Below the pieces are notes generated by a model, which worked only from the letters and a program-made list of their open reading frames with translations, did not search any database and had not been told where the DNA came from. Below, piece by piece: positions 37,935 through 52,617 of a DNA stretch of 64,000 nucleotides. The DNA lies in contig NW_020289975.1 of assembly GCF_003144245.1 (NCBI RefSeq), positions 62,001 through 126,000 of the forward strand, read 5' to 3'. This stretch comes from Jaminaea rosea. Its lineage: Eukaryota; Basidiomycota; Exobasidiomycetes; Microstromatales. Positions within the stretch are counted from its first letter, which is position 1. The number at the start of each line of letters is the position of its first letter. The position numbers and the translations under genes were made by a program.

Positions 37935-38348
37935 ATGCCCGCCTTCTTCGTCCTGCTCCTCATCTTGACCACTTGCGCCGCAGCACAGGTCGACATCCAG
38001 GCTGGCAAGAAATCTGGCCGTCTGCCGGACTCAAATCCTATCCCCTTGGCCAACTGCTGGGACACGACCGACTGCACGGGCTTGGTACAGGAGTTCTCTG
38101 GCCCCATTGGCTCGACGCACAACATCACTCTGAATCTATGCGTGCGTCCAATGAGCGAGGTGCCTTTCGGCTGAACAACTGATGATCTCTTCGACGCCAC
38201 GTAGGTGTCGATCAAGCCTGCTTCCCGCTCATTGATTGGTCAAGCATGCACCGATCTTGACTGCGCTGGCCACTGCAAGAACATTACGATGGAGACTTGC
38301 ACGGTGGTGCCGACTGGACATGAATATTTTCATAGCGTGTGCAAGTGA
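37935..38348 (+). CDS. Small secreted eight-cysteine protein (SSP1)
   Basis: The predicted precursor is 116 residues. A classic signal peptide, MPAFFVLLLILTTCAAAQ, is followed by a mature domain with eight cysteines spaced C-x5-C-x21-C-x14-C-x4-C-x3-C-x7-C-x13-C, ending one residue after the last. Two exons, 37935-38141 and 38205-38348, are split by a 63-nt phase-0 intron directly after the third cysteine codon. The frame without splicing stops at once with no cysteines. It is a paralogue of the gene at 45105-45549, with identical cysteine spacing and intron position. Such small secreted proteins are often effectors or cell-wall proteins, but nothing here decides the function. N-glycosylation sequons (NIT) occur twice. 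Confidence 0.78.
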
Positions 38349-38830
38349 GAGCGGAGGGGCGGCTACCAGTGCCGCCTTGCGTCTCGTTTCCTTAGCCTAC
38401 AGTACAGTGATATTATCGTGGGCATTGCCGACAGCTGGTCTGGCGCGAGCCTTTGCCCAATCCAAACCTTCTCTACTCTCTGTCGCCTCGTTCGATTTAG
38501 CAGGTCCATCGGGGACACGTTGCCTCGCTGACCACTGTCCATGGAGCATGACCGTGGGCGGCCAATCATGGGCCAGGGTTGAGCGGGCCGGATTCAAAGC
38601 GTTTGTGTCCGATCTGTACGGTGTACTGGCGGTACCAACGGCGTGCTCAACCAGCAGCGTCCAACTGACTGTCTTGTCCCTTCTCCTTCCTCACCAAATT
38701 TGAACGACCGCCCTGATCCTTCTCGTATGAGTCGAGCACAACAGTGAGACATAATGGTCGGCGGCCTGAACATGCTCATCCAGAAACGCTTACAGTCTGC
38801 CTCTAGCATCGCAAAGCAGCATCCCCAATC
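38349..38830. other. Intergenic gap, 482 bp, between SSP1 and SSP2
   Basis: Open frames here are short and have no recognisable motif or plausible splice partner. The stretch should contain the SSP1 3' UTR and SSP2 promoter. Confidence 0.35.
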
Positions 38831-39022
38831 ATGCGCGCCACCAGCCTCGCTGCCACCATTTTGCTCCTCGTCGCCATCACCACAGGCGTATCAGGGAAGC
38901 TTTGCTGCTCTTCGCACATGCAGAGGAAGTGCAGTTCTCGCGAATTCTGCAATGCCGATGAGGAAGAGGTGAAGGGTTCGTGCTGCTACGGCGATAAGAC
39001 TTGCTACTGTAATGGTGGATGA
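38831..39022 (+). CDS. Small secreted cysteine-rich peptide (SSP2)
   Basis: This intronless gene encodes 63 residues. The signal peptide is MRATSLAATILLLVAITTGV(SG). The mature peptide of about 41 residues has eight cysteines with the pattern CC-x7-C-x5-C-x10-CC-x5-C-x-C and ends shortly after the last. This differs from SSP1/SSP3, so it is a separate family. The two CC pairs and the compact size suggest a disulphide-knotted extracellular peptide. Function is unknown; an effector, antimicrobial or wall-associated role is possible. The short length makes the call dependent on the signal peptide plus cysteine density, which together are unlikely by chance. Confidence 0.68.
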   Translation: MRATSLAATILLLVAITTGVSGKLCCSSHMQRKCSSREFCNADEEEVKGSCCYGDKTCYCNGG

Positions 39023-39725
39023 AAGCTGAGAGTTAGGTGGGCGGGAATCTTTCCTAAGTGGCGTGAATGTCGATGGAGAGGAGGAAGGGAGAGAAGAGGG
39101 CTTGAGCTTAGAGGTGAAAAGCCACCTGGAGTGTGATACCCCGTCCACCCGCGCGAGGGAGGAGCGAGCGGTCAACAAGCGTAGTCACAACACCGAAGAT
39201 TTCGACAGGCATCATCTTGCAATCTTCTCGACAAAAGAACTCCATAGCCCTTCGGCTGAAAGTCAATGCTCATACGTGCTCTCACTGTACCCTCTCGAGA
39301 ATGGGCGGAGAGTGTCCGAATTGTGTTGGAAGAATCAGACAGGTAAGTGCCGAAGACGAAAGCCACGAATCTTGTGAAAAGGTCGTGGACGACTTGATAG
39401 CCAGGCGACATCGTGAGAAAGCTGAGATGGATGAGCGTTACCCTGCCGCCTCACCCAACGGTCCCCTCCCACTTGCGGAAGAGACTGTCGATCCTCGCTT
39501 TGATCGACGTGGGGGGTCGCTGCCCCTCCAGCACCTCATCGAGAGCCTTCATGTTGCGCTGCTTGTAGTACCAAGCCTGGCATCGAGCGCGGGAGTGGTG
39601 GTTCAGCGGTGATCTGACTGGCCGTGGAGTAGCGAGACTCTCACAATGATCTTCAGGTCTTCCTCTGACCTCGGCAGAGGCGAGACGCGTCAGTCAGCGC
39701 ACAAATTCACTCCGGGGCAGCGAGT
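39023..39725. other. Intergenic gap, 703 bp
   Basis: A frame open from 39301 to 39612 begins MGGECPNCVGRI and is preceded in frame by HTCSHC, giving a CxxC...CxxC look, but no ATG or convincing acceptor lies upstream of the first pair. I do not call a gene. The rest shows nothing clear. Confidence 0.35.
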
Positions 39726-39914
39726 TCACTTCCCCTTGGTGAACGCCTTACCAGGTCCCGTCTTCCCAGCCTGCTTGATATCTTTGATGATTTTCTTGTC
39801 CTGATCCTCCTCCTTCTTGGCCTCCTTACTGGAGCTGGTGCTGGGCTTGCTCTCGTCATCAGAGCTGAGGGACGAGGCAGCGCTTCGCTTTTGGGCGGGC
39901 TTGCGAGGTGGCAT
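39726..39914 (-). CDS. Small basic lysine/serine-rich protein
   Basis: A 62-residue intronless frame begins MPPRKPAQKRSAASSLSSDD and ends KAGKTGPGKAFTKGK-like after a run of Lys, Asp and Glu. It has no cysteine, no hydrophobic segment and no known domain. Compositionally it resembles small nuclear or nucleolar basic proteins with an SSDDE casein-kinase-type patch. The ATG context (GGCATGCC on the coding strand) is acceptable. It may be a real small gene or a fortuitous frame; the strongly protein-like composition favours the former modestly. Confidence 0.45.
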   Translation of the reverse strand: MPPRKPAQKRSAASSLSSDDESKPSTSSSKEAKKEEDQDKKIIKDIKQAGKTGPGKAFTKGK

Positions 39915-40244
39915 GGCTGGAGATAGCTCGTGGGTGTGGTTTGGAAAGGGAGTACAGCAACGTACGTCGTGAGGCTGATCACCAAGGGCCAGGTTGCCAA
40001 CCAGAGCTCTTCAGAATTAATCAACTGCCGTGCACGACCCGTGAGGACGATAAGCACGCGGCTGCTGATGAGGTAGTGTTCACACTCGCAGGCAAAAGCG
40101 CAGAACAGATTGCGAAGCCAGTCAACTCGCATGTGCAAGCGTGCCTGCCTGTTCAAGAAAACAGCGAGAGTGCTCATGTGATGCAGCGATCCATTTGCTA
40201 GCAAAGCACTCAGCGTTCAACCACATCTTGCGCGTCTGCCCACG
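39915..40244. other. Intergenic gap, 330 bp
   Basis: The gap lies upstream of the small basic gene and downstream of the RING gene. No gene or structured element is seen. It should hold the small gene's promoter and the RING gene terminator. Confidence 0.35.
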
Positions 40245-43200
40245 TCACATTGGCCCCACGCCCGCCTCCACCACCCGCTCAACCGCCTCAATCCTGCACG
40301 TAGGGCAAGCCCGACTCCTAGTCCTAAACCACGTCCGCGCACACGGCTCCTCGTGGAACACATGCAGACACTGAAGCACAACAGCCATCTGTCCCTCCTT
40401 GAACTGGCTCATGCAAACCGCACAGCGTTCCACCCTCAAGCCTAGGCAGGCTAGCTTGCTCTTCGTTTTGCCCTCTCGCGTGACACGGCGCGACTCGAGG
40501 TACACCGGGCCTACGGGCAGGGATGCCATCTCGTGAGGCGTGAGGATGCCTCCACGAGAGGCTTCGGCAGGGCCCAGGAATTCTTGGAGCGCGGCAAGCT
40601 CGTCGAAGTGGGAGCCATCAAGGTCGAGGCGCGAGGCGAGAACATCCAGATCGGTTATGCCTAGCGAAGGTTGGCGACGTGGTGGGGAGCGGGAGGGGGA
40701 GGGCGAAGAGGCGTCGTCATCTTCCGTGTTGGCGGGGCCAGAGATGTTGGAAGCTGACTGAGGCGGAGGCATCGTAGACGAGGGCGCGGAGCTGTCTTGA
40801 CGGAGTCTGAAGCTATTGCTGTCAGTGCTACCCTGGCGCAGTGTAGATGACCTGCCTGCGGGTGAAGTGATAGCCTCAGAGGGCTCCGCGTTCACAGGAG
40901 GCTGGCTCGCGAGCGCCTCGCGCCCTTGTCCATTGCTTCTGGCCGGCATCGTTGGCGGCGTAGGCAAAGGCCTCCTGCCGGTATGCGGCGGCACGACGAT
41001 GATGTCCGGCGGGCTGGCTACGGCTGCCGATTCGGTGGAGCTCGTGCGGCGCGCTTCTTGCCTTGGCTCAGCCAAAACGAGCGGCACAGCAGGCCTTGGT
41101 GGCAGCTGAGGTGGGCTGGCTCCGGGCATTTGAGAAACTCCTGATGCCATAGAAGGCGGAGGTGGCGGTGGACGTCGCACGGTCGTAGGCGGAGAGATCC
41201 TGTTAGGCAATGGAGGAGTTGCTCTGCGCTGCGGAACCTCCTGACCACCGTTCAATCGCTGCGCTGCCGAAGCAGAAGAGGCAGGCGGCGCCGTGGTCGA
41301 CGCGGTGCTTGCGACTCGCTGTCGCGGAGGAACAGGAGGTGGGGCACGTCGTACTGCTCCGGAGCGGGAGATGGTGGATGCCAATGGTCGAGTGGGCGAT
41401 GCTGGGGCATCCACCGTGGCGGGCGAAGACGCTGCACCAGCGCCCTCCTGCTGCGCGCCGCCCGTCTCCTGACCAGCCTCAAACCTCGCCCTCAGCGCTG
41501 AGATCCGACTCCCGGGTACGGGCGGTCGCGCGCGTGACCCAGGTGCTGCGCCTGTGGATGAACCGCCGTCACTCGAGATAGTCGGCGCACGGCTGGGCGG
41601 GAAGTGCCTCGTTGCGTCCGTGATCTGCGGTAAGCGGGACTGGCGGGGTAGGGGGGCGTAGGAGCTCTGCCTATTTGTAAAGGGTAGCGAAGGGTCGACT
41701 GGCTGCTGCTGTTGTGGGCGAAGAGAGCCGGAGAGGAGGCGCTCGAGTGCGGCGAGGGAATTGTGTCCTCCCTGCACACCGCCTTGAATTCGTGCGATAT
41801 CCAGGAGGGCCTCGCGGCGGAGCTGTTGCTCATCTGGGAGCCCGGTGCCGACTGAGACCTTGCGTGGCGGTGCTGGCGCTGGCGGACTTGTGACGGGAAT
41901 AGACTCGCCGGAGGTCTGGCGACTCTTCGAGCTTCGCATCGATGCTCGATCGCTGGCCACCGCCACCTCAGGTCCATCAATGCTACGCGTGCTCTTCTGG
42001 CTCGACCTCCTCGTCGGAGCTTGCTGCTGCGTCGACGACCCAGGCATGGGCGCGTCAAACAACCCTTTCAGTCGATCATTTACCTCAGCCCGCCTCATAG
42101 GCTGCGGTGCACCAGGCATTCGCCCTTGCCACAAGCTGCCGCTGGACCCGCTAGCCTTGAGCGACGGCTGACTACCCATCGACGTAAGCGTCGCCGTCCT
42201 CTTCACCGGCTCCATCCCGCCTTCCTCCTCTCCGCTGAACGAAGCACTGCTCGAGCTGTCCGGCTCGAACTCGCCAGCCGGCGCGGTGTACGAGCCAGGC
42301 AGATTGGGGTCGGACGCGGCATGACGGGATTGCTGCGCAAAGAGAGCGGCGTCGGCAGGCGGTCGGACAGGCTGCTTGCCTTTACTGCTAGAAGCCGTCG
42401 GGGCAGGCGCCAAAGAGCTGTCCAAGCTTCGCCTCACGGCAGCTAGGTCCGCCGCAGCGCTCGGAGCGGAGGCTATATCTTGTGTGCTCCACCTTTCGTT
42501 GACATGTCGCTGTACTTCACCATCGTCCGGGCTCAAGCTATCGTCCGACTCAGATGCTGCCTCGCCTTCGTCTGCGGATGAGTCTGACTCAGAGGCGTCG
42601 TAGGCCAGCCCGGCACCACGACTACGGCCCAGAGCAAGTGGGGGCGGCGCTTTAGGCAGTGACTCGCGCATGATCTGTCCTGGCGAGCGTGCCATCTGCG
42701 GAGGAGCCATCGCCTCGTCCTCGGATCCAGACTCGTCGGCCACGGTAGTCGTGCGCTCAGCTGCTGCGCGCATGGCTTCGAAGGCCTTTTGCTCTGCTTC
42801 CCACGCTCCTGCAGAGTCTGATGAAGCATCTGAGGCTGAGTCATCATTGTCGTCTGGTCGAACCATCGAGGACGATGAGGCGCCTTCCGATGTAGACGTC
42901 GTCGCGCGCTCCATCTGCACCCTGTGAGCCTCCATTTCCTCTCGAGTTCTTGGAGGAGGCGCAAGCGGTACATGCAAGCCGGCGGGAGAGGCGGCAACAC
43001 CCCACGCTAGCCTTCTGCGCTCTGCTGCTGCTGAAGCATCGTCCCTGAAACGTGAGTGAGATTCTGAGCTTGGCCGTGGGCGAATAGCAGTTGCTTTGCC
43101 GCGAGGAATGGGAGATGCGCGCTGATCTGATGTCGAGCGGCTGTGTGACTTGCGGGCTCCTCCCGTTCGGGTCACCTGCAGCGAAGGCACGCTGAGGGCG

Positions 43201-44774
43201 CCATTGGTAAAGCTACTTCGGTCTGGCTGCCGAGATGAAGCGGCAGCGCGGGGGGCCGCGCCAGGCGCAGCGCTCGATGATGGAACCACGACAGGGGCTG
43301 CATGGGGCAGTTCTGGTGTTGCCACAGCTTCGACGACAGCTGAAACCTCCTCCTCTAGGTCAACCTGCGACGACGTTGGTTCTGCGAGTTGGGCTTCCGT
43401 AGCCGGCAACGGCTGGTCGATGGCAGCAGCCTCTTGCGTGGGACTGAGCGCCTGGTCTTGTGCCTCCATTTGAGCTCTCTCCACCTCGGCTCGCTGCGCA
43501 GCCTCCTGTCTCGCCTCTTGTTCCAGCATCTCTCTCACAGCCACTTCATTTGCTCTCTCCTCCCTCCATCTCTGCTCTGCCATACCCTCCTTCCGTCTTC
43601 TGCGCAGCTCCAGACGATGTAGCCGCTCCTCAAAGCTGAGCCCTCGTTGAGCATCAAGCTCCCACGCTCTTTGCTCCTCGTCTGTCACCTGCTGTACCTC
43701 CTCACCCGCTGATGACTCGCTCGCCTCGGAGGGAGAAGCTGGTCGTGTTCCGTCCACCTGTACCACCTCTGCAGCTGCGCCCTCTTCTTCTTCTTCCTCT
43801 CCCTCGCTCACGAAAGCTGGCGGCGGGCTATCCGGCACTCTCCGCCTGTAGTCCACCCATCTCCTTTCGTCCTCCTCAGTCCACGGCGTCTGCTCTTCAC
43901 CTCCTTCCACATCTGGAGGTGGTGGAGCTCGCGGCGGGGTCTCTGGTCTGCGACTACCTTGTGGAAAGGGAGGAGGAGGAGTCGAGTCCGACTGCCGCCT
44001 CGAAGGGCTGGAAGGGCCCGCCTCATCGCCGTCCTCGTCGGAGTAGTCTGAGCTAGACTCTACGCCTGGCAGGCCAAGATGCGCGATCTCGTGATAGATG
44101 TTGTGCCGCCTGAGAGAGGCGCGAGGTGCTAGCTGAGTGGGGACGGATTGGGTTGCAGTGATGGGTGCGGCGGCCGGGTCTTGCACGACGTGCTCCTGAG
44201 GTAGAACGGCAGGACCGCTACTGCTGCGGCTCATGCGCGGGCGTGTTGCAGCTTCGCTGAGTCGAGAAGAGGAAGTGATTGGATCTGCAGCTTCGGCTGC
44301 TACCACTGCCGCCTGCTCCTGTTGGGCGTTGGAGAGCTGCCGTTGTCTCCTCCGAGGGGAGATGCTTCGCGACGAGGCTGCGGAGGGAGGGCGAGGCTCT
44401 GCGCCTCCTGACATAGCGACAGGCTCTGTGCGAAGACCTCTTCTTGCCACCTTCCTGGCTCGTCTCTCTCTTTCGCGCTCCTGCGCCTGTCGTCGCAGCA
44501 TATTGTCTGGGGCAGTGAGCGTCATGCGGCCGAGATGAGCCTCTGCCGATAGCAGGTGCGGAGCGAGGGGTGCATCGGGTCGATTCAAGGAGGAAGATGA
44601 GACTGATACGCCCGGGAGGCCATATAGCGGAGAGCGAGAAGATGAGGAGGATGCTAGAGCAGCTGCAGCTCGATTTGGACTGGAGAGGAGGGCAGCGGAT
44701 GAGGAAGGTGAGAGGCCAGGACGCTCTGTCCCGCGAGGGCGGCGGCTCCCTTCGCCGTTTGCTCGCCTCGGCAT
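40245..44774 (-). CDS. Large RING-H2 E3 ubiquitin ligase candidate
   Basis: A single exon encodes 1509 residues, almost all disordered and rich in Ser, Pro, Glu and Arg, with PPxP-type proline motifs (RRPPPPPPS, PPPLPNR) that could bind SH3 or WW domains. Around residues 320-430 is an acidic, helical Glu/Arg-rich segment (RLHRLELRRRRKEGMAEQRW). Only the last 70 residues form a recognisable domain, a RING-H2: CAVCMSQF...VVLQCLHVFHEEPC...RACPTC, a C3H2C3 zinc-binding pattern that normally recruits an E2 enzyme. There is no membrane segment. The substrate is unknown. The RING placed at the extreme C-terminus after a long disordered region suggests that the tail-less scaffold selects substrates. 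Confidence 0.8.
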   Translation of the reverse strand: MPRRANGEGSRRPRGTERPGLSPSSSAALLSSPNRAAAALASSSSSRSPLYGLPGVSVSSSSLNRPDAPLAPHLLSAEAHLGRMTLTAPDNMLRRQAQERERERRARKVARRGLRTEPVAMSGGAEPRPPSAASSRSISPRRRQRQLSNAQQEQAAVVAAEAADPITSSSRLSEAATRPRMSRSSSGPAVLPQEHVVQDPAAAPITATQSVPTQLAPRASLRRHNIYHEIAHLGLPGVESSSDYSDEDGDEAGPSSPSRRQSDSTPPPPFPQGSRRPETPPRAPPPPDVEGGEEQTPWTEEDERRWVDYRRRVPDSPPPAFVSEGEEEEEEGAAAEVVQVDGTRPASPSEASESSAGEEVQQVTDEEQRAWELDAQRGLSFEERLHRLELRRRRKEGMAEQRWREERANEVAVREMLEQEARQEAAQRAEVERAQMEAQDQALSPTQEAAAIDQPLPATEAQLAEPTSSQVDLEEEVSAVVEAVATPELPHAAPVVVPSSSAAPGAAPRAAASSRQPDRSSFTNGALSVPSLQVTRTGGARKSHSRSTSDQRASPIPRGKATAIRPRPSSESHSRFRDDASAAAERRRLAWGVAASPAGLHVPLAPPPRTREEMEAHRVQMERATTSTSEGASSSSMVRPDDNDDSASDASSDSAGAWEAEQKAFEAMRAAAERTTTVADESGSEDEAMAPPQMARSPGQIMRESLPKAPPPLALGRSRGAGLAYDASESDSSADEGEAASESDDSLSPDDGEVQRHVNERWSTQDIASAPSAAADLAAVRRSLDSSLAPAPTASSSKGKQPVRPPADAALFAQQSRHAASDPNLPGSYTAPAGEFEPDSSSSASFSGEEEGGMEPVKRTATLTSMGSQPSLKASGSSGSLWQGRMPGAPQPMRRAEVNDRLKGLFDAPMPGSSTQQQAPTRRSSQKSTRSIDGPEVAVASDRASMRSSKSRQTSGESIPVTSPPAPAPPRKVSVGTGLPDEQQLRREALLDIARIQGGVQGGHNSLAALERLLSGSLRPQQQQPVDPSLPFTNRQSSYAPLPRQSRLPQITDATRHFPPSRAPTISSDGGSSTGAAPGSRARPPVPGSRISALRARFEAGQETGGAQQEGAGAASSPATVDAPASPTRPLASTISRSGAVRRAPPPVPPRQRVASTASTTAPPASSASAAQRLNGGQEVPQRRATPPLPNRISPPTTVRRPPPPPPSMASGVSQMPGASPPQLPPRPAVPLVLAEPRQEARRTSSTESAAVASPPDIIVVPPHTGRRPLPTPPTMPARSNGQGREALASQPPVNAEPSEAITSPAGRSSTLRQGSTDSNSFRLRQDSSAPSSTMPPPQSASNISGPANTEDDDASSPSPSRSPPRRQPSLGITDLDVLASRLDLDGSHFDELAALQEFLGPAEASRGGILTPHEMASLPVGPVYLESRRVTREGKTKSKLACLGLRVERCAVCMSQFKEGQMAVVLQCLHVFHEEPCARTWFRTRSRACPTCRIEAVERVVEAGVGPM

Positions 44775-45104
44775 AGTTGTGTGCTAAGGATGATGGCGAG
44801 ATTGCGATACTGATTAGATCAGAGCTGAGTGCAATGGCCTGCTACCATTTTCCACCACGGGTTCGGGATGCCGGCAGAGGAGGTCGAAGACGATTGGGAA
44901 AGGAAAGGAGGCGGGACAATCGACTCGCATCGCGTGGAGGTCACTCGACTCAAGTCCAGGTCTCATGCAGCCGACCGCCTCGCCTCGCCTCTCGACAACA
45001 CCACGCGCCAACAGTGATCAAGGTAGACAACGAGCATTGATTGGAACACACGCAATGGCTTCGTCGGCAGGAACTATAACACTTCATAGCTCCAGGCGCT
45101 CGCT
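44775..45104. other. Intergenic gap, 330 bp
   Basis: The gap lies between the RING gene start and the SSP3 stop, both on the minus strand. It contains the RING gene promoter. No other feature is seen. Confidence 0.35.
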
Positions 45105-45549
45105 TCACACGCATACGCTGTGGAAGGAGGACCCATTGTTGGGCACCGGGGAACAAGCCGTCGCCGAGAGGTCGACGCATTTGCCCGAGCAGCCGAAGCC
45201 AACGCAGGCCTTGTTGATCTTTGAGCCAGCGGCTGCCTTGATGGACGACTGCGAGGGACATGGTGAGGTGCAACGAGGTCAAGGTCAGCTCTCGCTTGCT
45301 AGATGGAAGCCGCGTCAGCTCTCGACTCACGCAGGTGTTGCCTTGTATGTTGGTCGTAGACAAAGTCGGTCCATTGACGGCCTGACCTAAACCACCGCAG
45401 TTGAGTGTGTACCAGCAGGTGGCCAAGCGGACGTTGGCACGAGCCTCAACAGATTGCATAACGGCTTTATCGTCGGCAGCCCCGTGAGTCGGCGTAAGAA
45501 GGGCCAAGCCTGTAACGGCGGCAAGCGTGGCGAGTTTGTTGAAGAGCAT
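45105..45549 (-). CDS. Small secreted eight-cysteine protein (SSP3)
   Basis: The 120-residue precursor starts with the signal peptide MLFNKLATLAAVTGLALLTP(THGA). A short polar region follows, then a mature domain with cysteines spaced C-x5-C-x21-C-x14-C-x4-C-x3-C-x7-C-x13-C and one final residue, exactly as in SSP1. Exons are 45331-45549 and 45105-45248. The 82-nt phase-0 intron again falls directly after the third cysteine, and the second exon is 144 nt in both genes. Shared residues include TNI/HNI, SSIK/VSIK, and FHSVC near the end; overall identity is otherwise low. The two genes face opposite directions, so they arose by an inverted or dispersed duplication. Function is unknown; it is a candidate effector or wall protein. 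Confidence 0.78.
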
Positions 45550-46655: not shown

Positions 46656-48636
46656 TTACTTCCACGCCCCTGGCCCTCCAAGTGCACGGTCAAGGAAGAG
46701 CGCCAGCCTCGTGTCGACGTCCAAGGCAGCCGTAGCGTCTCCAAGCTTGAGAAGTGTACTGGGTGCCCGCACCGCGTACTTCAACTTTCGGTGCGCTACA
46801 GGAGGGAGAGGAGGCGGTGAAAGTGGTCCCCTTTCTGGCCTTCCCTGCTTCCCATTGTACTCGCGCTCCCTCTGTCGCGACCCTTGGGCAGTCTTTCGCC
46901 TTCGCTCGACCTCCACTGGCACTTCCCTCTCGATGTGCTCGAGAAAATGCTTGTGCGGTTCCTTCGCAACGGACGCCACCTCTTTGACCATCGAGCCAGA
47001 CTCTTCATCAACGAAACGATACTGACCCAACCAGCGCTTCTTCTCCTCTCTGCTTGGCCTGGGTGGAGCGTCCGCAGGGGCCCAACCGTATAGCTCGGTG
47101 ACGGCGTCGTGCATCTCTGAGCGAAACGTCATCGTCTTGCCGCCATCCATACGATGGGTCCACACGTCATGAGCTTCGCGCGGCCAACCTCCCTGTTCAT
47201 CTTCCTTCCTGTGCGTGGAAGAACTGCCGTGACTCTCGGCGCCATTCTCCCTTTCCCTGCGCAGCAGCTGCTCCTGCAGAATCTTTGGTGGCAAGTCCCA
47301 TGCAAATTCAAGCCGTTTCAAACCTCCAACGCCCAAGTCCCGTAGAGCCTGCGCCTCCTCTGAGTCTTCATCATGGACTGAGATGGCGACATTGCTGCCG
47401 TTGTTACCTGTGCTACCGTGTCGGCCTGCGCCCCACGTAGGAGCTGCGTGGCGCGGGCCGGAGTAGGTGGAGGTAGAGGTGCTAGAGGTATGACTCTCTT
47501 CCTTGCCATCCGCCGCTATTGCATCTGAACCGCATCTGATCCGGTCGGCAAAGACGATTTCCCGCAGAAAAGGGGCGAGACGACGAGCGACGATCTCGGT
47601 GGGTTGGAATGCAAAGCGGCGTGTGTCGTACCGAACTATGGGCGAAGGTATCACCGAAGGGTCAACTGAGGCTCTTCATGCAGCCGCAGATACGCTGTCA
47701 GCACTCACTATGCGAAACGATTGGCACGCCAACACGCCGGTACATGCCGTGCACGTCTGGATGTGGCTCCCATTGGTGCTCCCATCCAAGAGACGCATTG
47801 CTTCCGGCGCGTCGGGCTTCGACGATGTCTGCTGGAAACGCAAGGCCTGCCTCTTTCGACGCGGAGTCGGTGCCGATGATGTGCACTCTCTTCAGCTCTC
47901 TGCGGCAGACCCATTGGCGAAGAACTTGTTCGTAAGTAGTCTTGGTATCCACGCGCTCTTCTTCGTCGCCGGAGTCCGAGTCCGAGTCGTAGCTGAGGCT
48001 CGTGTACTCTGCAGCGGCATCGATGACGATGGTGACTTCACAAGGCATGAGGAGCAGAGGGAAGCTGTCCAACGAGCAATGGTAGGCTGATTCGGCTGCG
48101 CCCAGTGTGAGCGTGCGAAGATCGAAATGGACGCGAAGTGGTCCACCGTCCGGACCCTTGGAGAGGGTGTCGGTGTCCATAGAATCCTCATGGGCGGATA
48201 TGTAGAGAGCCCAAGCGTCGAGAAAGTGACGCCATTCATGGCTATCGAAATCTCTCATCTCTATGAAGAGATTGTCGACTGTTTTGAGGACGAAGTCAGG
48301 CTTCGAAAGGAGCCTCTTCGGTCCGAGGTAGTTCAGCATCTCTCTGACCTCTGTGGGCAGCCGTTCCTCTGCTTCCGGTTTGCCATTTCGCTCGTCACTG
48401 TCTCGAGGCGATGAGGGATAGTGTGCAAGAGTAACAAAGAAGCGCTTTGCAGCGGCCATGGAGCGGAGCACGACGGTCGTCCACCTACTTTCCGCGGTCA
48501 TGTTGCAGACCTCACGTGAGACAAGAGCAAGGCTAACCGCCGTTGCCTTATCCTGCAAGGCTGCCAGATCGAAGATGATCTCGAGGATTTCCTTAGGCAG
48601 ACGAGGCGTCGCCGCGGCGAGCGTCTCGCCCTCCAT
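46656..48636 (-). CDS. F-box-like paralogue A (intact)
   Basis: This is the first of three tandem paralogues. The 635-residue product starts MEGETL and shows an F-box-like motif LPKEILEIIFDLAALQDKAT followed by ALVSREVCNMTAESRW. The motif usually docks on Skp1 in SCF ubiquitin ligases; the rest would select substrate. A strand-rich region, an acidic loop (SYDSDSDSGDEEERVD) and the conserved pairs LKRVHIIGTD and IRYDTRRF...PFLREIVFAD follow. The C-terminal block reads APSTLLKLGDATAA...RLALFLDRALGGPGAWK. Exons are 47709-48636 and 46656-47635, with a 73-nt phase-1 intron at the same place as in B and C. No leucine-rich repeats or WD40 repeats are evident. The start was chosen by agreement with paralogue B. 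Confidence 0.72.
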
Positions 48637-48947
48637 CGTGATGTGCGAAGGAAAGCGGGGTCGGAGAAGAGATGTGAGGTAAGGTAGGAAGGAAAGGGAA
48701 GAAGGCAAGCGATACGCCGAGTCCGGGTGGCTTGTGCGGAGGCGGCGGAGAACGCGAGTTGCTTGGCTAGCGCGATTCTCGAGGAGTGTCACGGCCAACG
48801 AAAGGGTCGGAGGATCACAAGCACGTCGTCTGGTAGATTCGACAGATAGGTATTGATCAAAAGACTCTTGAGTATATAGAGCGAGGATGAAGATCGAAAA
48901 GTGCGACCGTCACTTGGCCCTGTCCCTTTCACTCCTGATGCTCGCCT

Positions 48948-50870
48948 TCACGCCCACGCGCCTGGTCCTCCACGCGCTTGATCAAGGAAGAGCGCCAGCC
49001 TCGTCTCAGGCTCAAAGGCAGCAGTCGTTTTACCTAGCTTAAGCAACGTGCTCGGAGCTCTTGCAGCAAAGGCTAGCTTGCGTTGCTGAACAGGTGGCTT
49101 CGGTGGCGGCGTGGGAGGCCCCTTCTCGGGCTGGCCCATACCCTCGTGGTAGCTGCGTTGCGACTCACGGTACGACTTCAGCCTGGCGCGGTCGCTTTTG
49201 ATCTGGTCGACGACCTCGGTCTCGATTTGCCTCAGGCGCTGCATGTGCGAGCTCTTGCGAAGTGAAATAAGATTCTTCACTATGGATCCCGCTTCTGGCG
49301 GAGCGAAGCGATACTGACCGAGCCAGCTGGCTTGCTCCTCCTTTGTGGGCTTATAAGGGGCGCCTGCTGGAGCTCAGCCGTATAGCTCGGTAACAGCATC
49401 CACGAGCTCAGAGCGGAATCGGTCTTGTCCGCCTTTGCTCTCGTCACCGAGCTTCGCGCCACGCTGGTCATTTGACTTCCGACGCTTGGGAGGGCTAGCC
49501 TGGTCCTCTTTGCCGTGCTGGCCGTCACTATTGCTGTTGGAGCGACGCTCTCCGAGAGTCTTGCCGGGTAGATTCCAGGCTAATTGAAGTCGTTTGAAGT
49601 CTCCTACAGTGCTGTTCTGAAGGACTTTTGCCTCCTCTGACTCCCCGTCCTCCAAGACTGACACGAACTTACGGCCGATTGACCCCTTCTGCGTGGTTCC
49701 ACGTTTCTTGGCCGCAACACCAGCTGACGATGCGCGCGTTGATGTATTCTCCTTGCAATCAACGTCGCTTGATGTGGTGGGACTTCCTGCCCCGTGACCG
49801 CCTGTAGAGCTACCGGTGTCAGGCCTAGCCTCGGCGAAGACAATCTCTCGAAGGAAGGGTGCGAAGCGACGGGCGGTGATTTCGGCAGGCTCCAAGGCAG
49901 CGCGGCGAGTGTCGAAGCGGACTGCTCCACCCAGGGTCAAAGCAGGTCAATGATCCTTTTGCTTGAAGCTCTGAGTTGGTGCGCTCCACTTACTGTGTGA
50001 GAGTCGAGCCCTCCAGTATGCCGTCCGCCCACTTCCAGCACGGCACTCTTCGAGCTCCTCAAAAGGAAAGGGTAGACCCGTATCCTCCGACTTGGTATTG
50101 ACGCCGACCATGTGAAGGCGAGACAGATTCTCTCGCGCGAGCCATTTCCGAATGACTTTGATGTAAGGAGGCGGTCGATTGTAGCCCATCTCTTCTTCCT
50201 CATCGCTGTCTTCGAAGTCGCTGAAATCGTAGAATTTTGCCTCCGAGGAGCCATCAACGACGATAGTCAGGTCGCAGGGATGCAGCTGAAGAGCACAGGT
50301 CTTGACACAGGCATGTGTTTCAGTCTCCTTTGCGCCGAGACTGAGGGTACGTAGAGAGATAACAATGTTGAAAGCTCCAATCTCTGGGTCCTTGACGATG
50401 AAATCATGGTCGAAGAACCAGTCATCATGATTGACATTTATGACGGCCCAATCTGCGTGCTCGCAGCAAAATCTGTGCCACTTGCTCGGATCGTAGTCGT
50501 GCATCTCGAGGTAAAGATGCATGAGACTGTAGTGAGGCATATCTGGTTTCGAGAGCAAGCGCTTAGTGCCTAGTCGCTTGTACATGGCGAGGATGGCGGG
50601 ACTGAGATTGGGATTTTCATTCTTTAGAGCATTCTTCCTGCGGAGCAGCGGCTTGTGAAACATTGTCGAGAAGAATCTGGTGGTTTGATTCATGGATCGC
50701 AAGACTGCAGTGGACCATCGCTCCTCGGCGGTGATCTTGCACACCTCGCGCGAGACGAGAGCGAAGCTGACTGCAGTGGGCGTGTCGTGTAGAGCCGCCA
50801 TCTTGAAGACAGTCTCCAGGACCTCTTTGGGGAGTCGCAGTGAAGAAGACATGGGCTTATCGCCCTCCAT
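48948..50870 (-). pseudogene. F-box-like paralogue B, coding frame interrupted by a TGA
   Basis: It is homologous to A over its whole length: LPKEVLETVFKMAALHD and REVCKITAEERW at the start, an acidic loop (FSDFEDSDEEEE), LSRLHMVGVN, then after the intron IRFDTRRAALEPAE and PFLREIVFAE. Exons are 49994-50870 and 48948-49921, with a 72-nt phase-1 intron (GTAAGT...GCAG). At 49374-49376 the codon that is Trp in both sisters (YGWAPA) is TGA. Beyond it the frame stays open and homologous for about 140 codons to the family ending RLALFLDQARGGPGAWA. Either the gene makes a protein of about 474 residues lacking the C-terminal block, or it is a recent pseudogene, or the base is an error, or the stop is read through. 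The well-kept downstream part argues that the change is recent. Confidence 0.72.
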
Positions 50871-51096
50871 CTTGAAGAGTCAAAGAGGAGGCGAGAATGC
50901 TGGAGCAGAGAAGGTTGGTAAAGAGGTAAGGGGGCAGGGAACGAAAGGAAAGCGAGGCGGCGCGTCGGGCGGCCATGCTCAAGGCGGACCGTGCGTGGGC
51001 TAGCGAGCTCGACTTCAGGCAAGAGAGATGAAATGGAAATCGGGCCCGAACTGTGATAGCCTCTCCCTCACCTCTTGCCTTCGGACCATCCTGCGT

Positions 51097-52617
51097 TCAC
51101 GTCCAAGCCCCCGAACCACCCTGCGCACGGTTCAAGAACAAAGCGAGTCTGGCGTCTGCACTTATAGCAGCCTGAGCCCCGCCGAGCTTCACCACTGTAG
51201 CCGGCGCTCGAATGGCGTACCTCAGCTTTCTTCCAGCAAAAGCGGCCCCGCCGGGACGCTGGCGCACTTTGGCTGCCATTGCCTTCTCGATGTTCGCTAG
51301 CCGATCGAGGTCGTTGCCCACTTCATTACGCAGAACTTCGTCGACCATGTCTCCGGCACCCGGCTTCACGAAGCGATACTGCTCGAGCCAGTCTGTCCCG
51401 TCTGCATTCGACGCCCCAGCTGGAGCCCACCCGTACCCTTCCGTGATTCTCTCGACAAGCTCAGAGCGAAGCGGCTCTGTTTCGCCGTTCCAGGTAAAGT
51501 GCACCCGCTTGAACTGCCCCACGCCCATGTCACGGAGTACCTCTGCCGCCATCGAGTCATCGCCCATCACGGAGATAAAGGGCCCTTGAACGGTACCGTT
51601 GGCGTTCCCAGTGACCGTGCTAAGCTCCATGCCGCTGCTGCCGCTATCGCCGGCGAAGCAGACTTCGCGCAAGAAAGGGAGCATGTGGCCAGCGAGTACT
51701 ACGGCGGGCTTGTATGCGTACTCTGTCGTGTCATAGCGTACTGAGAGACGGGACTTCCTGCGTGAGCACACTGTCAGCACCTCGTTCTATCTCCCGCAGC
51801 TCACTCACTGTGCGTAATCAACCAGGGCTTTTCATCTTTCCAGATCCGCTCATGATTGGGACCCGGCTGACCGAGCTGTAATGTGCTTCCCGCACGAAAG
51901 TTTTGGAAGAAGGTAGGCATGCCTAGGCCAGTGATGGGAGACTGTGAGTTGATGCCGACACCGTGAATGCGCTGTAGGCCAGGACGAGCGAGCCAATCGG
52001 GGAGGAAGTCCGCGTACGTTGAACATGACAATGGTGAGCTCCCGTGCAAAGACAAAGATTGGATGCCCGCGGATTCTCGAAAAATAGATTGACTCTGAAG
52101 GTCCAAGACTGAGGACATCGAGGCGGAGTGTGATGCTCATGCCATTGTAGCTTTCGACGGGCGTCCAACTGCACTGGGAAGAGGTTTCGGGGACTTCGTA
52201 GCAATAGTCGAGCAGCTCGCCGACGAAGCTATGCCAGATCGTCTCATTGTAATCGCTGAGCTCCATGTACAGATTGCGAAGAAGAGTTGTAGCTTTGTCT
52301 GGCCTGGAAAGGAGCGGATTTTTGCCCAGATCATTGAGAATGCGATGCATTGGACTGGTCTTGATTTGCTGTCGGGTGGGCGACTTCTTCGACGGCGAAT
52401 GGATCAGAGTGACGAAAAAGCGCATGGCTTGTGTCATGTCTTTGAGTACCGCTGTTCCCCATCTTCCCTCCGCAGTCAGGCGACTAACCTCTTTGGAAGT
52501 GAGGGCGAGGGCCCGGGCCGTAGGTGGATGGCCAGTGGCCGCGAGTTGCAGGATGGTCTCTGCGATGTCGACAGGGAGCAATGACCATACGCTGACGGGA
52601 GAGGTCGTTGTTGCCAT
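51097..52617 (-). CDS. F-box-like paralogue C (shortened)
   Basis: The third paralogue has LPVDIAETILQLAATGHPPT and SKEVSRLTAEGRW in the F-box-like region, LQRIHGVGIN, IRYDTTEYAYKPA and the ending RLALFLNRAQGGSGAWT. The phase-1 intron at 51741-51808 (68 nt) matches A and B. The acidic loop between ELTIV and the following helix is missing, and the reading frame changes at that point (about 52018). Two explanations are open: a frameshift with the helix STYADFLPDWLARPG still readable in the new frame, or a 46-nt intron (51972-52017, GTACGC...CTACAG) that would remove that helix and rejoin N to RIHGVG in frame. With that intron the product has 468 residues. The Pro-rich segment before the C-terminal block is also shorter than in A. 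Confidence 0.6.

Follow-up and report, generated by a model that had tools for sequence, protein, structure and literature searches.

Inverted eight-cysteine genes of Jaminaea rosea and a predicted crystallin-like fold for their large secreted-type family

Two small genes of inverted orientation, SSP1 and SSP3, encode secreted-type proteins with eight cysteines in the genome of Jaminaea rosea (Basidiomycota, Ustilaginomycotina, Exobasidiomycetes, Microstromatales). They lie in a window of 64,000 nucleotides (nt), the whole stretch of DNA that was analysed, which corresponds to C1:62001-126000 of the 16.6-Mb, 21-contig J. rosea assembly (contigs are designated C1, C3 and so on). Introns were found by enumeration of GT..AG pairs, with coordinates computed from offsets, and signal peptides were assigned by eye; the spliced products are 116 aa (SSP1) and 120 aa (SSP3) long. 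The features of the two genes are as follows.

37935-38141, plus strand: SSP1 exon 1, with signal peptide (by eye), short pro-stretch and cysteines 1-3
38142-38204, plus strand: SSP1 intron, 63 nt, phase 0, GTGCGT..CACGTAG, with in-frame stops inside, after cysteine 3
38205-38348, plus strand: SSP1 exon 2, 144 nt including the stop, with cysteines 4-8
38049-38345 (span including the intron), plus strand: SSP1 mature eight-cysteine domain, aligned with SSP3 and related to the genome-wide family
45331-45549, minus strand: SSP3 exon 1, with signal peptide (by eye), pro-stretch and cysteines 1-3; identical to BDZ90DRAFT_257035
45249-45330, minus strand: SSP3 intron, 82 nt, phase 0, GTGAGT..CTCGCAG, after cysteine 3
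45105-45248, minus strand: SSP3 exon 2, 144 nt, with cysteines 4-8 and the stop
45108-45423 (span including the intron), minus strand: SSP3 mature eight-cysteine domain, predicted beta-gamma-crystallin-like, the subject of the model and fold matches

For each gene, a single enumerated solution combines a consensus-like donor and a YAG acceptor with the stated protein, and the enumeration also permits other, weaker splice options in both. A phase-0 intron directly after the third cysteine and a 144-nt second exon, which a sequence-only reading of this DNA had described, are borne out in both genes. The spacing it had given, C-x5-C-x21-C-x14-C-x4-C-x3-C-x7-C-x13-C followed by one trailing residue, is likewise identical in the two mature domains, and signal peptides visible by eye agree with its view that both proteins are secreted. 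One additional cysteine of SSP1 is located within the signal peptide.

Spliced SSP3 is identical (100% over 120 aa) to a public J. rosea hypothetical protein, BDZ90DRAFT_257035. Against the metagenomic protein P0006, compared in the frame of exon 1 and hence out of frame in exon 2, SSP3 has 2/73 changed residues in exon 1, 6/27 in the intron, 1/48 in exon 2 and 5/51 on the 3′ side (exon 2 versus intron plus 3′ side, Fisher p = 0.03). The intron has thus changed more than exon 2, which is the pattern expected of a genuine intron. The predicted splice of SSP1 rests on homology to SSP3, on the splice signals and on the in-frame stops within the intron. SSP1 matches the metagenomic protein P0009 at 78/79 residues, the last 10 compared being intron read-through, and no public J. 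rosea record of spliced SSP1 occurred among the matches of the large protein-collection searches.

The mature domains of SSP1 and SSP3 are identical at 35 of 78 residues, or 27 of 70 when the cysteines are left out. Their local alignment score of 179 compares with 28.6 ± 5.6 (maximum 62) in 2,000 shuffles, and the ungapped score with the cysteines held fixed stands at 9.6 s.d. over 5,000 shuffles, an agreement in sequence from which we take the two proteins to be homologous. A FastTree tree of 32 family domains, defined below, places them as sisters with a support of 0.93. The NG86 estimates (dN 0.54, dS 1.63) give a ratio of approximately 0.33, a rough value because dS is near saturation, and point to old copies that are constrained overall. 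The earlier suggestion that selection holds the cysteine frame while the remainder diverges is upheld as to the frame, which is kept, but at this ratio NG86 gives no sign of positive selection between the two genes.

No inverted duplication of the flanks of SSP1 and SSP3 is visible. One 25-nt inverted match (88%) falls within the coding regions, and the remaining inverted matches are at chance level. Between the genes sits a 1509-aa low-complexity open frame (40245-44774, minus strand) with a C-terminus that looks RING-like by eye, so that SSP1 and SSP3 are set apart by unrelated sequence. A further secreted-type gene, SSP2 (38831-39022, plus strand), is intronless and encodes 63 aa whose eight cysteines follow another arrangement, CC-x7-C-x5-C-x10-CC-x5-C-x-C; up to E 10, nothing in the genome matches it except SSP2 itself.

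Searching the genome with eight protein queries returned 97 rows, which merged into 44 places, a count that includes the matches of the eight queries to themselves; the best E-value is ≤ 0.01 in 37 of these and ≤ 0.001 in 33. Going by their reading frames, three places outside the 37 look like false matches: L008 on C1 encodes a Gln-rich protein, L009 on C3 a helicase-like protein, and L011 lies on C18 with an E-value of 2.1. Places at E ≤ 0.01 within 15 kb of one another form clusters, comprising six at C14:10-17 kb, four at C14:135-140 kb, five at C8:456-467 kb and five at C1:1863-1874 kb. SSP1 and SSP3 almost certainly belong to this large, diverged secreted family.

A pattern of cysteines 1-7 has 31 matches in 89 loci and none in the same loci reversed. 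Because similarity had determined which 89 loci were taken, the reversed control bears on the cysteine frame and not on that choice. One of the 31 is a low-complexity, Pro/Arg-rich chance match, which we rejected; the other 30 are family domains. Adding SSP1 and SSP3 brings the set to 32 domains with cysteines 1-7 intact; the pattern does not extend to cysteine 8, and the set omits other intron-split copies and the loci from one of the eight genome queries. At least one member, L014, lacks the eighth cysteine in the family alignment. Across the 32 domains, the spacing between cysteines 1 and 2 is 5 in 25 and that between cysteines 4 and 5 is 4 in 28, and a serine stands two residues past the third cysteine in 27. 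The exact spacing noted earlier is, over cysteines 1-7, common to SSP1 and SSP3 alone among the 32; the wider family varies every loop. In the remaining 30 domains, an intron behind cysteine 3 is absent by construction, because the pattern required an open frame. The shared intron may thus be particular to the SSP1/SSP3 pair, and intron-split copies could also carry it.

Several members depart from the single small domain. One eight-cysteine domain (L033, also L053; C8:435757-435975, minus strand) is C-terminal on an 851-aa, Pro/Thr/Lys repeat-rich frame that resembles a wall stalk. Three consecutive family domains (L018-L020; C1:1872820-1874061) occupy approximately 1.2 kb, are joined by recurring '[QG]CVxxGS' linkers and probably belong to a single intron-containing gene with several domains. 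A long form on C14 (L022, C14:13191) resembles them.

Outside the genome, Pfam contains no family for SSP1, SSP3 or SSP2, and the spacing belongs to no Pfam family, in keeping with the remark of the sequence-only reading that it is not a named one. Nineteen family members gave five stray Pfam hits, confined to one member each, at E 0.014-0.44. Crystall (PF00030) has no match in the genome and, like DUF3430 (PF11912), none among the 19 members at E ≤ 1. In the PDB, a phmmer search with SSP3 returned two copper-chaperone rows only (E 0.85-0.87) and no killer toxin, and PDB sequences compared with the family profile gave no match, again with no killer toxin.

In a large protein collection, SSP3 as query found only itself (1 of 11 candidates), and profile queries found only Jaminaea-like metagenomic proteins and SSP3 (5 of 971 and 3 of 522 candidates). 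The profile search that had been proposed alongside the spacing recovers SSP3 and seven metagenomic near-copies, but no other fungal relatives, through a method that reaches solely relatives with common short exact words; absence of the family elsewhere in fungi does not follow. Each of the seven metagenomic proteins is close to one J. rosea copy. Five of them match at 86/91, 98/101, 101/107, 95/99 and 78/79 aligned residues and keep every cysteine but one, which lies in a signal peptide. A sixth is P0006, the near-copy of SSP3 described above. The seventh, P0008, follows L044 (C12:462270-462536) up to cysteine 7 and then has a different C-terminus, and may be a copy that is broken, differently spliced or misassembled. 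To judge from their sequences, six of the seven near-copies fit upkeep of the genes in a second strain or a close species. Public J. rosea records returned only SSP3 of the family, against metagenomic near-copies of six other members, and the family may therefore be largely unannotated in the public J. rosea proteome. No report of the eight-cysteine family in Jaminaea was found in the portions of the open literature available to us.

AlphaFold models were built for SSP3 and for P0003, a metagenomic orthologue of a paralogue. Both are essentially all-beta within the domain, both fit the superfamily's pattern, a domain of approximately 80-90 residues whose beta barrel is built from two Greek-key motifs, and both match the beta-gamma crystallin fold, with the same superfamily at the top. 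From these two models, the fold of the family is very probably beta-gamma-crystallin-like. Sequence homology of the family to crystallins is unproven: hhalign of the family against four bacterial crystallin domains gives a non-significant probability of 0.03%. Structure prediction had been proposed for the pair, and SSP3 does yield the crystallin-like fold, but in a weak model, with one fair model of five (62.5) and the other four at 34-42.

Might the crystallin-like fold be an artefact of modelling from shallow alignments, the family having another all-beta disulfide fold? The alignments hold 4 and 5 sequences, mostly the same ones, so that the two models are not independent; their pTM values are low (0.51 and 0.62), and the four poor SSP3 models and the hhalign result also speak for an artefact. 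The fold matches have Foldseek E-values of at least 0.35 and VIA Z below 8, a range that the tool flags as common. We nevertheless consider this reading improbable, because both models put the same superfamily first, the domain of the P0003 model has a pLDDT near 90, and two features of the sequences agree with the fold. The first is an internal twofold signal: the halves of the domain, taken from the family profile, align with a score of 13.0 against a maximum of 10.2 over 60 column shuffles, although hhalign assigns this half-to-half alignment a probability of only 8.5%. The second is a Y/W/FxxxxC motif known from MiAMP1 and from the eight-cysteine Bad proteins of Dictyostelium (PMC7886984). 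At the second cysteine it is present in 14 of the 32 domains, including SSP1 and SSP3, against 6% expected, and is absent there from the other 18.

WmKT and MiAMP1 were not among the matches listed (best 50) for the P0003 model, an absence that excludes neither. Calcium-binding microbial beta-gamma crystallins carry the motif (N/D)(N/D)xx(S/T)S, which none of the 32 domains has at the position of the first motif as we placed it. Assignment to the Ustilago killer toxins KP4 and KP6 was rejected, since these have an alpha/beta-sandwich fold (PMC12715866) and our models are essentially all-beta. A viral origin was also rejected: the viral fold search gave no coherent picture, all 65 of its matches (50 of them listed) being weak and none reaching E ≤ 0.001.

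Through its predicted fold, a cysteine spacing without a family name is linked to the structural group that includes killer toxins, antimicrobial proteins of plants and candidate effectors. The killer toxin HM-1/WmKT of Cyberlindnera mrakii (PDB 1WKT) has a known crystallin fold, the general type predicted for the J. rosea family. The two have no sequence match in PDB searches and differ in cysteine number, ten in HM-1 and eight in the family. MiAMP1 (PDB 1C01) likewise has this type of fold, has no PDB sequence match to the family and contains six cysteines rather than eight. By description only, the family also resembles Mig1 and Mig2 of Ustilago maydis, cysteine-rich secreted families from the same subphylum as J. 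rosea.

To kill, HM-1/WmKT binds mannoproteins of the wall and inhibits glucan synthase (PMC12715866), and MiAMP1 is a plant antimicrobial protein (PMC7886984). The many in-genome copies of the J. rosea family set it apart from HM-1, for which the available text describes none of that kind. Closer in this respect is the Bad family (DUF3430, PF11912), with 54 members in D. discoideum, which are secreted, have at least eight conserved cysteines and Y/FxxxxC motifs, and have been proposed to adopt a MiAMP1-like fold (PMC7886984). The two families agree in being secreted-type, eight-cysteine, large, equipped with Y/FxxxxC and of the same proposed fold type; Bad proteins are tied to bacteriolysis, and the J. 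rosea family has no PF11912 match in the search of 19 members given above. The crystallin/WmKT fold is, in addition, one of 18 candidate effector families present in more than 80% of 20 fungal species, in an ascomycete survey panel whose authors call massive expansions rather rare (PMC10462633). Its crystallin orphan candidate effectors are small secreted proteins with the same predicted double Greek-key fold; compared by description, the J. rosea family differs in coming from a basidiomycete, in its dozens of copies and in its own cysteine frame. One crystallin-like Fusarium protein has been described as a virulence factor (PMC12396751).

Taken as a whole, the best explanation, which we regard as evenly balanced, is that the family consists of secreted, disulfide-braced, crystallin-like mini-proteins, perhaps acting against competing microbes. 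SSP1 and SSP3 would stem from one member that was copied locally, in inverted orientation, a long time ago. Each mature protein would be a single domain of approximately 78 residues, predicted to form a double Greek-key (beta-gamma-crystallin-like) barrel, in which up to four putative disulfides would partly stand in for the calcium sites and aromatic corners that stabilise ordinary crystallins. The cysteine frame would keep this core while the loops diverge. The proteins would be exported and act outside the cell, where they may bind a glycan, a mannoprotein or the membrane at the surface of rival leaf microbes, as for HM-1/WmKT and MiAMP1. Over cysteines 1-7, the net charge of the 32 stretches is positive in 17, negative in 7 and neutral in 8 (mean +0.8), and the pI is 5.65 for SSP1 and 8.51 for SSP3; this mixture, with domains that are not consistently cationic, makes a simple membrane-lytic action less likely. 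Other crystallin-fold proteins have structural or enzyme-accessory roles, which also counts against the microbe-directed reading.

The same proteins could instead be self-directed, serving in the wall or matrix for adhesion, desiccation tolerance or dimorphic growth. The stalk-like context of L033 and the three successive, linked domains on C1 speak for such a role, and crystallin folds occur in the stress coats of other microbes, as in Protein S and spherulin 3a. However, most collected members are lone small domains, and high divergence with clustered copies is generally more usual for conflict proteins than for parts of an organism's own wall. We regard a self-directed role as doubtful.

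Alternatively, the family may be plant-directed, as the sequence-only reading had suggested, with effectors secreted on or in leaves and acting on the plant. Its members are small, secreted-type, cysteine-rich and expanded, smut pathogens belong to the same subphylum, and both the candidate effectors of ascomycetes (PMC10462633) and the Fusarium virulence factor (PMC12396751) provide precedents for the fold. Against this, J. rosea is described as a phylloplane fungus, with no disease reported in the available text: its source was the phylloplane of Plumeria in Florida (PMC8880017), and it is listed with phylloplane fungi in a list that also contains Ustilago maydis (PMC7766764). In the accessible portions of these two papers, it is neither called a pathogen nor stated to be non-pathogenic. 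A plant-directed role is, on our assessment, possible and rather unlikely. The phylloplane habitat makes microbe-directed roles possible besides interaction with a host, and a microbe-directed role is our tentative first choice over the plant-directed and self-directed ones.

A wider proposal is that the dozens of crystallin-fold proteins, including the multi-domain and stalk-borne forms, constitute a killer-toxin-like or antimicrobial chromosomal arsenal of a leaf-surface yeast. We hold this to be somewhat unlikely; if true, the arsenal would represent the HM-1/MiAMP1 fold expanded outside a plant-pathogen setting. Our results suggest that in a leaf-surface yeast a crystallin-like fold has multiplied into dozens of copies, and the family offers natural variants with which to test whether expansions of this sort are used in conflict with plants or with other microbes.

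The window also contains a local tandem expansion, at 47698-52617 on the minus strand, where three alike open frames of 255-312 aa begin with a sequence that appears F-box-like by eye (LPKEILEIIFDLAALQDK...).
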